A DNA stretch of 64,000 nucleotides, from the NCBI RefSeq assembly GCF_002272875.1, contig NZ_MLAN01000001.1, forward strand, positions 1 to 64,000, written 5' to 3'. This DNA is from Helicobacter sp. 11S02629-2. GTDB lineage: Bacteria > Campylobacterota > Campylobacteria > Campylobacterales > Helicobacteraceae. Shown piece after piece: positions 8,177-64,000 of this stretch (positions are counted from its first letter, which is position 1; each line of letters opens with the position of its first letter). A program made the translations under genes and the position numbers. The notes beneath the pieces were generated by a model. The model saw nothing but the letters and a program-made list of their open reading frames with translations, searched no databases and had not been told where the DNA came from.

Positions 8177-10684
8177 ATGGATGAAATGCAAGAGATAATG
8201 GAAGACTTTCTAATCGAAGCATTTGAAATGATAGAACAACTAGATCAAGATTTGGTTGAGCTTGAAAACAATCCTGAAGATTTAGACTTGCTTAATCGTA
8301 TCTTTAGAGTAGCCCACACTATAAAAGGCTCTAGCTCTTTTTTAAACTTTGATATCTTAACTTTTCTAACTCACAACATGGAAGAAGTGCTTAATAAAGC
8401 TAGAAAAGGTGAGTTGAAAATCACCTCTGATGTTATGGATGTCGTCTTAGAATCTGTAGACTTGATAAAAGCTTTGCTTGTGGCTATAAGAAATGATGGC
8501 ACAGATGCTAATAGTGGCATAGATGTTAGTGGCTGTGTAAGTCGTTTACAAGCTATATCAAAAGGCGATGAGTCTATAAGTCCAAAAGGCACTAAGGCAC
8601 AAAATAGTGCTGATACGCAAAAAAGCAAAGATTTACAAAAAGATTCTAAAACTTTAGAAGTTGCAAGCAACACAGCAAGCCCTGCAGAGCAAAAAGTGCA
8701 AGAGAATGCAAGTAGTACTCCTTCTAGTGAAGAAGAAAAAGACTACAGCAAGATGAGTGATGCAGAAGTAGAAGCAGAGATAGCTAGACTTCTTAGCCAG
8801 AGGCAAGAAGAAGATAGAAAGCTTAGAGAAGAGCAAAAAAAGAAAGGCATAGTCTTAGATATACAAGCACCAAAAGATGTAGACGCTGAACCTAAGCCTC
8901 CTAAAAGTGAGGCTAGTAAGACTGAGATACCTAAAAGCTATGCGTCTAAAGATGAAGCTAAGCATAGTGATCATGATATCCATCATAAAGTGTTAAGTGC
9001 AGGCATGGGCTTAGATTCTAAGTCCAGCAAAGATGGTAAGTCTCCTTCAGTCGCAGTTGAGCCTACTGTAAGAGTAGATGTTAAAAGACTAGATCACTTA
9101 ATGAACCTAATAGGAGAGCTAGTTTTAGGCAAAAATAGGCTTATTAGGATTTATGGTGATGTTGAAGAAAGATATGAGGGTGAGCGCTTTTTAGAAGAGC
9201 TTAATCAAGTAGTGTCTTCTATAAGCACAGTTACTACTGACTTGCAACTTGCTGTTATGAAGACTAGGATGCTTCCAGTTGGAAAAGTTTTTAATAGATT
9301 CCCTCGTATGGTTAGAGACCTAAGCCGCGAGCTAGGAAAAAACATAGAACTAGATATAAGTGGAGAAGAAACTGAGCTTGATAAATCCATAGTTGAAGAG
9401 ATAGGCGACCCGCTAATCCACATCATAAGAAACTCCTGTGATCATGGTATAGAAAGGCCAGAAGATAGGTTAGCTGCAGGTAAAAGTGAAGTTGGTAAGA
9501 TAGACCTAAAAGCCTATAATGAAGGTAACCACATAGTCATAGAGATAAAAGATGACGGTAAGGGACTAGATGCTGAAATGCTAAGAAGAAAAGCTGTTGA
9601 AAAAGGTCTTATGTCGCAAAAAGATGCAGATAGCATGACTGATAAAGAAGCCTATGCGATAATCTTTAAGCCGGGCTTTTCTACTGCAACTACCATTACT
9701 AATGTAAGTGGTAGAGGGGTTGGCATGGATGTAGTTAAGACTAATGTTGAAAGACTAAATGGTCTTATAGAAATAGATTCTGAAAAAGGCATCGGAACTA
9801 CTTTAAAGCTAAAGATCCCTCTAACTCTAGCCATCATGCAAGCTCTTTTAGTAGGTGCACAAGAAGAGTATTACGCCATACCGCTTAGCTCAGTGCTTGA
9901 GACTGTAAGAGTAGGGCAAGATGAGATTTACACAGTTGATGGTAAGTCTGTTTTAAGACTTAGAGATGAGGTCTTAAGCTTAGTAAGATTAGCTGATATC
10001 TTTAAAATAGATTCTATATTAGGCAATATTAGTGAGGTCTATGTAGTCATTATAGGCTTAGCTGAACAAAAAATAGGCGTTATAGTAGACTATCTAATAG
10101 GGCAAGAAGAAGTAGTTATAAAGTCGCTTGGCTACTATCTAAAAGGCACTGAAGGCATAGCTGGGGCGACAGTTAGAGGAGATGGCAAGATAACTCTTAT
10201 AGCAGATGTTGCAGCTATGATGGATATGGCAAAACATGTAAAAGTAAGCGTTAATAATCTTATCTCTGAGGCTTCAAACTCTAAAGTAAAAAGTGCACCA
10301 AGTGACTATATAGTACTAGCAATTGATGATAGCACTACTGATAGGGCTATAATGAAAAAGTGCTTAAAACCACTAGGAGTTACAGTCTTAGAAGCGACTA
10401 ATGGCCTTGAAGCCTTAGACCTACTAAAAAATGGTGATAAGCAAATAGATGCAGTCTTAGTGGATATAGAAATGCCACGCATGGATGGCTATACTTTTGC
10501 CTCTGAAGTAAGAAAGTATAATAAGTTCAAAAACCTCCCTCTTATAGCAGTTACAAGTAGGACTTCAAAAACTGATAGGATGAGAGGGGTTGAAAGTGGT
10601 ATGACTGAGTATATAACTAAGCCATATACACCAGAGTATCTATTAAACGTAGTAAAACGTAATATAAATCTACCAAGTAGCTAG
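8177..10684 (+). CDS. cheA: chemotaxis histidine kinase CheA with C-terminal receiver
   Basis: I chose the ATG at 8177, preceded by AAAGAGG; an in-frame GTG at 8168 overlaps that Shine-Dalgarno. The 835-residue product has an Hpt domain with phospho-His47 (VAHTIKGSSSF) and a long Ser/Lys/Glu-rich linker at about 140-290. A dimerisation and kinase core follows, with HIIRNSCDHGIE (N box), DDGKGLD (G1) and GRGVGMDVV (G2). Next comes a CheW-like P5 domain, then a complete receiver domain (IDDSTTDRA, LVDIEMPRMDG, YITKPYTPEYL). The fused receiver (CheAY) is the normal form in Campylobacterota. It phosphorylates itself and passes phosphate to CheY and CheV. Confidence 0.97.
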   Translation: MDEMQEIMEDFLIEAFEMIEQLDQDLVELENNPEDLDLLNRIFRVAHTIKGSSSFLNFDILTFLTHNMEEVLNKARKGELKITSDVMDVVLESVDLIKALLVAIRNDGTDANSGIDVSGCVSRLQAISKGDESISPKGTKAQNSADTQKSKDLQKDSKTLEVASNTASPAEQKVQENASSTPSSEEEKDYSKMSDAEVEAEIARLLSQRQEEDRKLREEQKKKGIVLDIQAPKDVDAEPKPPKSEASKTEIPKSYASKDEAKHSDHDIHHKVLSAGMGLDSKSSKDGKSPSVAVEPTVRVDVKRLDHLMNLIGELVLGKNRLIRIYGDVEERYEGERFLEELNQVVSSISTVTTDLQLAVMKTRMLPVGKVFNRFPRMVRDLSRELGKNIELDISGEETELDKSIVEEIGDPLIHIIRNSCDHGIERPEDRLAAGKSEVGKIDLKAYNEGNHIVIEIKDDGKGLDAEMLRRKAVEKGLMSQKDADSMTDKEAYAIIFKPGFSTATTITNVSGRGVGMDVVKTNVERLNGLIEIDSEKGIGTTLKLKIPLTLAIMQALLVGAQEEYYAIPLSSVLETVRVGQDEIYTVDGKSVLRLRDEVLSLVRLADIFKIDSILGNISEVYVVIIGLAEQKIGVIVDYLIGQEEVVIKSLGYYLKGTEGIAGATVRGDGKITLIADVAAMMDMAKHVKVSVNNLISEASNSKVKSAPSDYIVLAIDDSTTDRAIMKKCLKPLGVTVLEATNGLEALDLLKNGDKQIDAVLVDIEMPRMDGYTFASEVRKYNKFKNLPLIAVTSRTSKTDRMRGVESGMTEYITKPYTPEYLLNVVKRNINLPSS

Positions 10685-10695
10685 GAGTTAAAATA

Positions 10696-11199
10696 ATGAC
10701 TGATAATAATGCACTAAAAGATGTATTTACCAAGCAGAGGGAAAGTGCTGAAGGTAGCAACAGGGTCGAAACTGAAAACGTAGTCCAAGTGATAGGATTT
10801 ATCATAGGTAGTGAAGAGTTTGCAGTGCCTATCTTAAATGTTAGAGAGATAGTAAAGCCTATAGAGTATACACGTGTTCCCGGTACGCCTGATTACGTAC
10901 TGGGTGTTTTTAACCTTAGAGGCAACGTTTTTCCTTTGATTAATCTAAGGATGAAGTTTGGCATACCTGCTATAAAACAAGACCAAGATACTAGATACCT
11001 AGTAGTTAACCATAATGATGATATAGCTGGCTTTGTTATAGATAAGCTTACAGAAGCTATAAGGATAGATGAAAGCGATATAGATTCCATCCCTGATACT
11101 TTAAATGAGCAAGATAACTTAATGTATGGTATAGGTAAGAGGGAAGATAGACTTATAACTATCTTAAAAGTTGATAGCCTTTTAAAAAGAACTTTTTGA
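10696..11199 (+). CDS. cheW: chemotaxis adaptor CheW
   Basis: A 167-residue single-domain CheW that bridges chemoreceptors and CheA at polar arrays. The family core is clear: VIGFIIGSEEFAVPIL, VREIVKPIEYTRVPG, YVLGVFNLRGNVFPLINL and ILKVDSLL. The start has a TAGGAG Shine-Dalgarno and lies 11 bases after cheA, so the two are translated from one transcript. It completes the cheV-cheA-cheW cluster. argC follows after 28 bases, possibly on the same message, although its function is unrelated. Confidence 0.96.
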   Translation: MTDNNALKDVFTKQRESAEGSNRVETENVVQVIGFIIGSEEFAVPILNVREIVKPIEYTRVPGTPDYVLGVFNLRGNVFPLINLRMKFGIPAIKQDQDTRYLVVNHNDDIAGFVIDKLTEAIRIDESDIDSIPDTLNEQDNLMYGIGKREDRLITILKVDSLLKRTF

Positions 11200-61856: not shown

Positions 61857-62966
61857 TTACGCCTCTAAGGCTTTTTTTATGATATGTCCATAAAGCAAAA
61901 CTTCCACTAAAAAGCTATCATGCCCATAATTAGATTCTATAATCTCTAACTTGCAATCTTTTTTCAGGGCTTTTAACTCTTCATATAAGATCTCATGCTC
62001 TTTTAGAGTAAACATATAATCTCCAGTAAAGCAAATTAGCAAGATTTTATTTTGTACTCTTGAAAGTGCGCTTTGCAAACTATCAAAATGTAAGCTTACA
62101 TCATAAATATTAAGAGCCTTTAATAGATAAAGATAACTTAGCGGGTCAAAGTACTTAGTGAAGTTTTGACCGTTATACTCTAGATATCTATCTATCTCAA
62201 AGCGGCCAAACATGTCATAGTAGCCTTCATTACTAACATACTTTCTTCCAAACTTAGCTTCCATGGTATGAGAAGATAGATACTGAGTAAAGCCAAGCAT
62301 ACGTGCAGTTTCAAGACCCTTAAACTCTGGCTTATCTTTCATGTTATAAAGTCCGTTTTTAAACTCAGGATCTAAAAAGATGGCTTCTTTCATGACTTTA
62401 TTAAGCGCTATAACCATAGGCGAGGTTTTATAAGTACAAGATATAGGGATAAAAAGCTTAGCTGTGCGAGGATACTCAACTGCATAGCTTAAAGTCTGCA
62501 TCCCCCCCATAGAGCCGCCAATAACTGCGTGTAAGGTCTTTATCTGCAAAGAGGCTATAAGGGTGTTTATAGCTTTTATCATATCTTGTATGGTTATGAC
62601 TGGAAACTTGAATCTATAAAAGTTTTCATTATCAAACATAAGGCTTGCAGGCCCAGTTGAGCCATAGCATGAGCCTAAGACATTAACACAGATGACAAAA
62701 AACTTAGTTGTATCTATACTTTTAGCTTCACCTATCATGGAATCCCACCAGCCTTTTTTTCTATCTCCGGGATAGATTCCAGCTGCGTGATGTGAGCCAG
62801 TTAAGGCGTGCATAACAAGTACTGCGTTAGTTTTGTCTTTATTTAGCGTGCCATAAGTTTCATAGACTAGGTCATAAGGGTCTATTATCCTTCCGCTATC
62901 TAGGTAGAGTGGATTTTGAAAGTGGGCTTTTTTAGTGACTAGGTTTAAGTTGTTAGGAGTTTGCAT
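61857..62966 (-). CDS. metX: homoserine O-acetyltransferase
   Basis: MetX acetylates homoserine, the first committed step of methionine synthesis by sulfhydrylation. The 369-residue alpha/beta hydrolase has an oxyanion region, VMHALTGSHHAAG, and the nucleophile Ser152 in GGSMGGMQTLSYA. The catalytic Asp lies in ICFTGDYMFTLKE and the His in SNYGHDSFLVE. NVLGSCYGSTGPAS is a signature of this subfamily. The start overlaps the stop of the upstream outer-membrane gene by one base (TAATG), so they are translationally coupled despite unrelated roles. Confidence 0.95.
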   Translation of the reverse strand: MQTPNNLNLVTKKAHFQNPLYLDSGRIIDPYDLVYETYGTLNKDKTNAVLVMHALTGSHHAAGIYPGDRKKGWWDSMIGEAKSIDTTKFFVICVNVLGSCYGSTGPASLMFDNENFYRFKFPVITIQDMIKAINTLIASLQIKTLHAVIGGSMGGMQTLSYAVEYPRTAKLFIPISCTYKTSPMVIALNKVMKEAIFLDPEFKNGLYNMKDKPEFKGLETARMLGFTQYLSSHTMEAKFGRKYVSNEGYYDMFGRFEIDRYLEYNGQNFTKYFDPLSYLYLLKALNIYDVSLHFDSLQSALSRVQNKILLICFTGDYMFTLKEHEILYEELKALKKDCKLEIIESNYGHDSFLVEVLLYGHIIKKALEA

Positions 62967-63571
62967 TAAAACTTAAACTCATAGTTAAAACTAAGTCTTG
63001 GTTTATATTCAAAGTTTTTAGAAAAAACTGCAGCAAGTGAGACTGCATTTTTATCATTCATCTCATAAAAAAGTCCACCTTGAAAACGTAGACCTTGGCT
63101 TATAGGACCAGTGAAAAAAGGAGTTATATCTAAGGCTTCATTTATGCGTTCAAACCCAACACCTCCAAAGGGATAAAGTTTAAACTTATAAGCCCCTATA
63201 TAAAAGAGGGCATCTACTCCTGCCATCTTATAAGAGTTAGTAAAGTCACCAACAGGGATAAACCCTAGACCATAGCCTAGTTCTATCTTAACTCCCATAG
63301 CCATGTTTATACTTGGGAGGTTAAGCCTTTGGTCTAGACCAATTGCGGCTTGTATGATGGGTAGGGGTAAAAACTTCTGCTCGTCAAAATAAGAGCCCGG
63401 AGGTATGCCATTTTTTAACTTTAAAGAAGCGTCATTTTTTAAAAGACCAACAGAGCCTCCAGCTTGCACATAAAATCTTGTGCTTGCATAAGAGACACTA
63501 AAAGATAGCAGCACTAAGGCTGCTAAGGTTTTAATGTAGTTATATTTATGTATTCTATTCTTCTTTTTCAC
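62966..63571 (-). CDS. small outer membrane beta-barrel protein
   Basis: I prefer the GTG at 63571 (M-K-K-K-N-R-I-H-K-Y...) because it gives a normal signal peptide, basic then LAALVLLSFSVSYA. The longer frame to 63628 adds an unlikely leader inside the preceding gene. The mature part of about 170 residues alternates like a barrel of eight strands (FYVQAGGSVGLLKN, GVKIELGYGLGFIP, ALFYIGAYKFKLYPFGGVGFE, ending LSFNYEFKF with a terminal Phe). It overlaps the response-regulator gene by 17 bases and metX by one. The family is not recognised beyond Helicobacter-type OMP. Confidence 0.7.
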   Translation of the reverse strand: MKKKNRIHKYNYIKTLAALVLLSFSVSYASTRFYVQAGGSVGLLKNDASLKLKNGIPPGSYFDEQKFLPLPIIQAAIGLDQRLNLPSINMAMGVKIELGYGLGFIPVGDFTNSYKMAGVDALFYIGAYKFKLYPFGGVGFERINEALDITPFFTGPISQGLRFQGGLFYEMNDKNAVSLAAVFSKNFEYKPRLSFNYEFKF

Positions 63572-64000
63572 TATCGTCAAAATCTTCTTTGTCTTTGGAA
63601 TCTTGTTCTGATATATTATCATGATCATGGAGACTGTTGGAAAGAGATTCTATGTTGTTGTGAAGTTTGTAGACCTTATTTTTAACACGTATTAAAAGTC
63701 CAGTTTCTATTAACTGTTTAAAAGTTTTTACAATAGTTGGCTTACTTACATTTAGCTTTTCCATGATATCTTCATAGCTTCCATAAAAAACTTTATCTTT
63801 ATCACAGTTATCTAATAAGAACTTTATGATATCTATCTTTCTACCACCTATAAAGGCTGCTATGACGTTGATTAGTAAGTTTTTGTACTCTATCTCCATG
63901 GCTTGAAGCTTAGGAGTAAGGACTTTTTTCATAGTGTAAAGCACTTCTACCATATCTAGTGGTTTTAATATATAGCCATCACACCTTAACTTTATAGCTT
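63555..64000 (-). CDS. response regulator with RepL-like winged-helix output domain (cut by window end)
   Basis: The frame stays open from the stop at 63555 to the window edge, and no upstream start is inside the window; the ATG at 63953 is internal. The first codons read A-I-K-L-R-C-D-G-Y-I-L-K-P-L-D, the beta-5 end of a receiver domain with its conserved Lys-Pro. After a short linker, about 80 residues form a winged helix: IKFLLDNCDKDKVFYGSYED, then IMEKLNVSKPTIVKTFKQL as the recognition helix and GLLIRVKNKVYKL as the wing. This resembles plasmid RepL proteins. An acidic Ser/Asp/Glu tail ends the protein. It heads the OMP-metX-csd run. The histidine kinase is unknown. Confidence 0.75.
   Translation of the reverse strand, partial: AIKLRCDGYILKPLDMVEVLYTMKKVLTPKLQAMEIEYKNLLINVIAAFIGGRKIDIIKFLLDNCDKDKVFYGSYEDIMEKLNVSKPTIVKTFKQLIETGLLIRVKNKVYKLHNNIESLSNSLHDHDNISEQDSKDKEDFDDSEKEE

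Follow-up and report, generated by a model that had tools for sequence, protein, structure and literature searches.

The window, that is, the whole stretch of 64,000 nucleotides analysed from Helicobacter sp. 11S02629-2, ends inside a gene for a response regulator. The frame at 63555-63998 on the minus strand was open through the window edge, and reading its continuation from the same contig (G000:C12) gave an ATG-started protein of 253 amino acids, with the upper end of its gene at 64316 on the window's scale. Downstream of the regulator is a gene resembling those of outer-membrane beta-barrel proteins. The features of this region are as follows.

63555-64316 (window scale; L002:3555-4316), minus strand: response regulator gene, 253 aa (Pfam and contig sequence)
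63555-64000, minus strand: part of the regulator gene in the window, the C-terminal 147 codons and the stop
63939-64262 (window scale; G000:C12:63939-64262), minus strand: whole receiver domain (Response_reg match)
63939-64000, minus strand: 3' end of the receiver in the window, beta-5 with the conserved K118-P119 (Response_reg match)
63855-63953, minus strand: long helix joining the receiver to the winged helix, residues 122-154 (AlphaFold model of the 96%-identical sister protein)
63648-63866, minus strand: RepL-type winged-helix output domain, residues 151-222 (RepL match, plasmid RepL matches and profile comparison)
62966-63628, minus strand: outer-membrane beta-barrel-like gene downstream of the regulator (OMP_b-brl, 8.5e-6, just under the cut-off), starting at ATG 63628 or GTG 63571

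The earlier note had proposed, from the portion in the window, that a receiver is fused to a RepL-like winged helix, and had named a missing remainder of the receiver as grounds for giving the proposal up. The rest of the receiver does sit in the DNA upstream of the window end, and matches to both Response_reg and RepL in the one protein bore the proposal out. Residues 19-125 are an intact, full receiver (Pfam Response_reg, 1.6e-20). The acidic pair, the phospho-acceptor Asp, the Thr/Ser and the Lys of a receiver are all present, and in the alignment of the regulator family E23/D24, D67, T96, K118 and P119 were invariant or nearly so. The AlphaFold model of the sister-species regulator (96% identical; mean pLDDT 83.5) has a canonical receiver, then the long helix 122-154, followed by three more helices (158-169, 181-188, 192-205) and a wing of two strands. 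A fold search with the full regulator model matched receivers and ordinary response regulators.

The best Pfam match of residues 151-222 was to RepL (4.8e-8; 33.1 bits versus a cut-off of 20.3). No OmpR, NarL, NtrC or LytTR output was among the Pfam matches, with the C-terminal fragment scanned even at E=1. The suggestion that the output is not of the OmpR, NarL or NtrC kind was upheld by Pfam and by profile comparison, neither of which assigned an ordinary response-regulator output family. The regulator is a real fusion of a receiver and a RepL-type DNA-binding domain. With the standard response regulators (OmpR, NarL, NtrC and LytTR classes) it shares the receiver, the conserved phosphorylation residues and an upstream kinase partner, but its output domain matches none of those families.

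Resemblance of the output domain to RepL proteins

RepL proteins (PF05732) are replication-maintenance proteins of plasmids and phages. With the output domain (residues 139-221) as query, 11 of 72,556 plasmid records (7.3 billion bases) matched at E<=0.01. Ten of the matches carry an annotation as RepL or plasmid replication protein and are on Campylobacter and Priestia plasmids; the other is unannotated at that place. Phage matches were fewer and weaker, and included one RepL and one replication-initiation protein. When a profile of the regulators was compared with five RepL proteins, 78 columns aligned at a probability of 98.9%, and these took in the helix that precedes the winged helix. This core and its preceding helix could be aligned with RepL proteins such as those of pCjH61 of Campylobacter jejuni and pPmC-142-9 of Priestia megaterium over about 78-80 residues at about 30% identity. 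Unlike in RepL, the core is attached to a receiver here, in a chromosomally encoded protein that has a kinase partner. In addition, the regulators lack the N-terminal TGE motif common to the five aligned RepL proteins and the C-terminal NP/FKG stretch found in most of them. Based on the absence of these motifs, the output domain is a RepL-type DNA-binding core and not a whole RepL.

We considered whether the RepL label might be a database accident, the output domain being a generic winged helix of MarR, TrmB or HTH_36 type with no special tie to RepL. Weak matches to HTH_36, HTH_11, MarR and TrmB, the restriction of the Pfam match to RepL positions 46-119 of 164, and the lack of any significant fold match for the output domain alone, whose isolated model was poorer than the full-length one, are all in keeping with such an origin of the label. 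That model did have the plasmid initiator structures 4pt7, 4pql and 5kbj among its top, non-significant matches. Against a generic domain, the next Pfam family for the C-terminal fragment was more than three orders of magnitude behind RepL, and the plasmid search at E<=0.01 found nothing other than RepL-type genes and the one unannotated place. The profile comparison extended beyond the winged helix itself, and Response_reg and RepL were both present in all 37 homologues scanned, some of which had been gathered through RepL. We therefore think it unlikely that the label is accidental.

A replication factor whose RepL-type domain binds an origin, with the receiver gating initiation, is a most improbable reading, although the closest relatives by sequence are RepL plasmid proteins and the best PHROG matches, like most of those with a known function, were to replication-initiation or DnaD-like families. 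The motifs common to RepL proteins outside the winged helix are missing from the regulator, its gene is part of an ordinary run of genes on a contig of 327 kb, and many related genomes lack it altogether. Thus, of the replication-initiator-type domain that the earlier note had described, the RepL-type core stood while the replication role was left unsupported. The RepL-annotated protein SEN1990, of the Salmonella Enteritidis island ROD21, was found not to be required for the island to replicate or to be maintained, and was linked to oafB expression; its RepL membership was doubted by its authors (PMC10655114). By its description SEN1990 is like the regulator studied here in being chromosomal, RepL-annotated and a winged-helix protein implicated in gene expression, not in replication or maintenance (PMC10655114), but no receiver is reported for SEN1990. 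SEN1990 is a precedent for RepL-annotated proteins acting outside replication. The regulator is most likely a transcription regulator.

Other Campylobacterota families were seen to have stand-alone winged-helix proteins of 76-97 aa that have no receiver and match RepL and the output domain (L010:1468-1719, L018:1459-1710, L030:1477-1707 and L007:1477-1770; RepL matches of 4e-11 to 8e-10 for three of the four). The genes at L018 and L030 are convergent with a gene resembling that of an MntP-type transporter.

Distribution of the family and its partner kinase

The survey of Campylobacterota for the same fusion and its kinase that the earlier note had called for found both a fusion family and a single kinase family directly upstream of it. 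Among about 85,000 species genomes searched, 80 loci were found, in Campylobacterota only, many of them from Helicobacter, Sulfuricurvum, Sulfurospirillum and uncultured Campylobacterales; the search patterns were drawn from this regulator family, and could miss remoter fusions elsewhere. Two candidates were ruled out as OmpR-type, namely the tetrachloroethene regulator of Sulfurospirillum and a match of 28% identity on a Sulfurovum plasmid. No receiver-RepL regulator was described in the literature searched, which comprised open-licence papers and part of the census literature. We rate the architecture as so far undescribed, and the whole as a two-component system of the ordinary type whose output domain is unusual and specific to its lineage.

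In 65 of 79 loci, the gene immediately before that of the regulator encoded a member of one histidine kinase family, and nearly all the other loci were at contig edges or had kinase sequence nearby. The sole clear exception was the locus of the sister species, Helicobacter sp. 13S00401-1 (L085). These kinases combine a HATPase_c domain with a HisKA helix that contains HQWRQP, and some members have a 4HB_MCP-like sensor region. A clear regulator orthologue was identified in 32 of 59 related genomes; 31 of these also encode a full-length kinase and one does not, and no genome has a full-length kinase but no regulator. The Fisher value for this co-occurrence (6e-16) overstates independence as the genomes are related. 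In 18 loci, none of them in Helicobacter, the gene immediately before that of the kinase encodes a Peripla_BP_6 protein, suggesting a small molecule as the stimulus. The Sulfurospirillum loci (L118:4815-10552, L138:3375-9020 and similar) have, in this order, genes for a binding protein, the kinase, the regulator and a peptidyl-prolyl isomerase, then a glnK-like and an amt-like gene; the association with ammonium genes might point to a signal connected with nitrogen.

In one clade of uncultured Campylobacterales (L111, L120, L126, L128, L130-L131, L133-L136 and L139), in which up to about 280 bases separate kinase and regulator, the region upstream of the regulator contained a conserved palindrome (TTTATTA-N5-TAATAAA and variants of it) immediately followed by a conserved TATAGT. 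Its outer 5-mer pair recurred at the same spacing in 11 of 32 upstream regions versus a shuffle maximum of 6, the sequences being related and AT-rich. The palindrome is a candidate autoregulatory site, or alternatively it may be a promoter element. The Helicobacter upstream regions had nothing comparable and no convincing shared operator beyond AT-rich repeats.

Separation of regulator and kinase, and the present neighbours

In Helicobacter sp. 11S02629-2 no kinase or binding-protein gene lies upstream of the regulator. The kinase orthologue was found on another contig (C24:205432-206937; L149:7433-8938, minus strand), scoring 376 bits versus 34 for the next match in the genome, and adjoins pepF and a gene for a protein of 148 aa. 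There was no binding-protein gene beside it, and this genome does not have the operon of Peripla_BP_6, kinase and regulator genes seen in relatives of Sulfurospirillum and Sulfuricurvum. In 9-10 other loci pepF and the 148-aa gene occupy positions -3 to -5 relative to the regulator gene; there they are encoded on the other strand, upstream of the kinase-regulator pair. Since these two genes flank both the kinase here and the intact pair elsewhere, the kinase kept the ancestral site beside pepF and the regulator moved to its present place. In the family tree this regulator fell within a Helicobacter group, a position consistent with vertical descent; L112 was a rogue branch, its gene being miscalled. 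Between the two sister species, the regulator had a dN/dS of 0.025 and the kinase one of 0.051, below the other genes compared (0.060-0.147). Both genes are under purifying selection, and the separated pair remains constrained.

The pairing of the regulator with the C24 kinase is predicted from orthology. Assigning the pair by elimination was ruled out, since this genome has further kinases and regulators that are likewise dispersed and unpaired. Other two-component genes without an adjacent partner were two OmpR-type regulators and two histidine kinases (G000 contigs C2, C3, C16 and C49; L155-L158), and separated pairs seem to be common in this lineage. HP1021/CemR and HP1043/CosR are atypical Campylobacterota regulators that likewise have no kinase gene next to them, but the regulator described here has an intact receiver and a cognate kinase family exists. 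The likely counterparts of HP1021/CemR and HP1043/CosR, which by size we take to be a 296-aa frame at C12:205829 and a 220-aa gene at C40:121740, are separate genes in this genome.

The regulator had been thought to overlap an outer-membrane gene and to head a run of metX, csd, ccmA and mfd genes that it might control. The overlap is 74 nt if ATG 63628 of the outer-membrane gene is used but only 17 nt with GTG 63571, which just precedes a signal-peptide-like stretch. The regulator does not head an operon; it is internal to a longer same-strand run, in which it follows lnt, yraN and a ferric-reductase-like gene. Control of its present neighbours (the outer-membrane protein, metX, csd-type peptidases, a ccmA-like bactofilin and mfd) would accord with their being co-directional with the regulator and close enough for possible co-transcription. 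However, among the 79 loci that of the sister species is the only one in which the outer-membrane gene, metX, the ferric-reductase-like gene and lnt are next to the regulator, and the usual place of the family is behind the kinase, in other surroundings. Control of this run was not supported, and we regard it as distinctly unlikely. As the regulator has been relocated and its surroundings were seen only in a genus of two species, the window neighbourhood gives no basis for inferring targets; the outer-membrane gene is a neighbour and not a demonstrated target. Two overlapping large genes without Pfam matches (L002:6789-8831 and 8828-11131) may be a dynamin-like protein pair.

Proposed function and origin of the regulator

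Together, these data lead us to consider it quite likely that the regulator belongs to a two-component system conserved among Campylobacterota and not encountered outside that phylum. Its histidine kinase, a membrane protein with an N-terminal sensor region, the HQWRQP phospho-acceptor helix and an ATPase domain, would read a periplasmic signal, which in Sulfurospirillum, Sulfuricurvum and related lineages is probably delivered by the periplasmic binding protein encoded before the kinase. The signal would cause the kinase to autophosphorylate and to transfer the phosphoryl group to D67 of the receiver, and phosphorylated receivers would then dimerise. The long helix after the receiver would set two RepL-type winged helices on DNA, and transcription would be switched in this way. 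In the genus of Helicobacter sp. 11S02629-2 the regulator gene has left the kinase-regulator operon, with both halves of the system kept. The data establish the make-up of the domains, their conservation, the linkage and co-occurrence with the kinase, the relocation and the purifying selection; phosphotransfer, dimerisation, DNA binding and a role in transcription are predicted. We have good confidence in this account as a whole.

As to origin, a Campylobacterota ancestor may have acquired the DNA-binding core of RepL from a plasmid or phage and joined it with a receiver. The outcome would be a phylum-specific class of regulators reading RepL-type palindromic sites, each accompanied by a kinase and, in certain lineages, also by a periplasmic binding protein. 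We offer this scenario tentatively, as possible but somewhat doubtful.

The finding would add to the response regulators a DNA-binding output class that is built on a domain of plasmid-replication type and has spread phylum-wide, in Campylobacterota, whose gene control is thinly known. Because the kinase-regulator pair is present in many Helicobacter species and jointly missing from others, it may mark a difference in lifestyle. The lineage of Helicobacter sp. 11S02629-2 provides a natural case in which the genes of a kinase and its regulator have been separated and both are still under selection.
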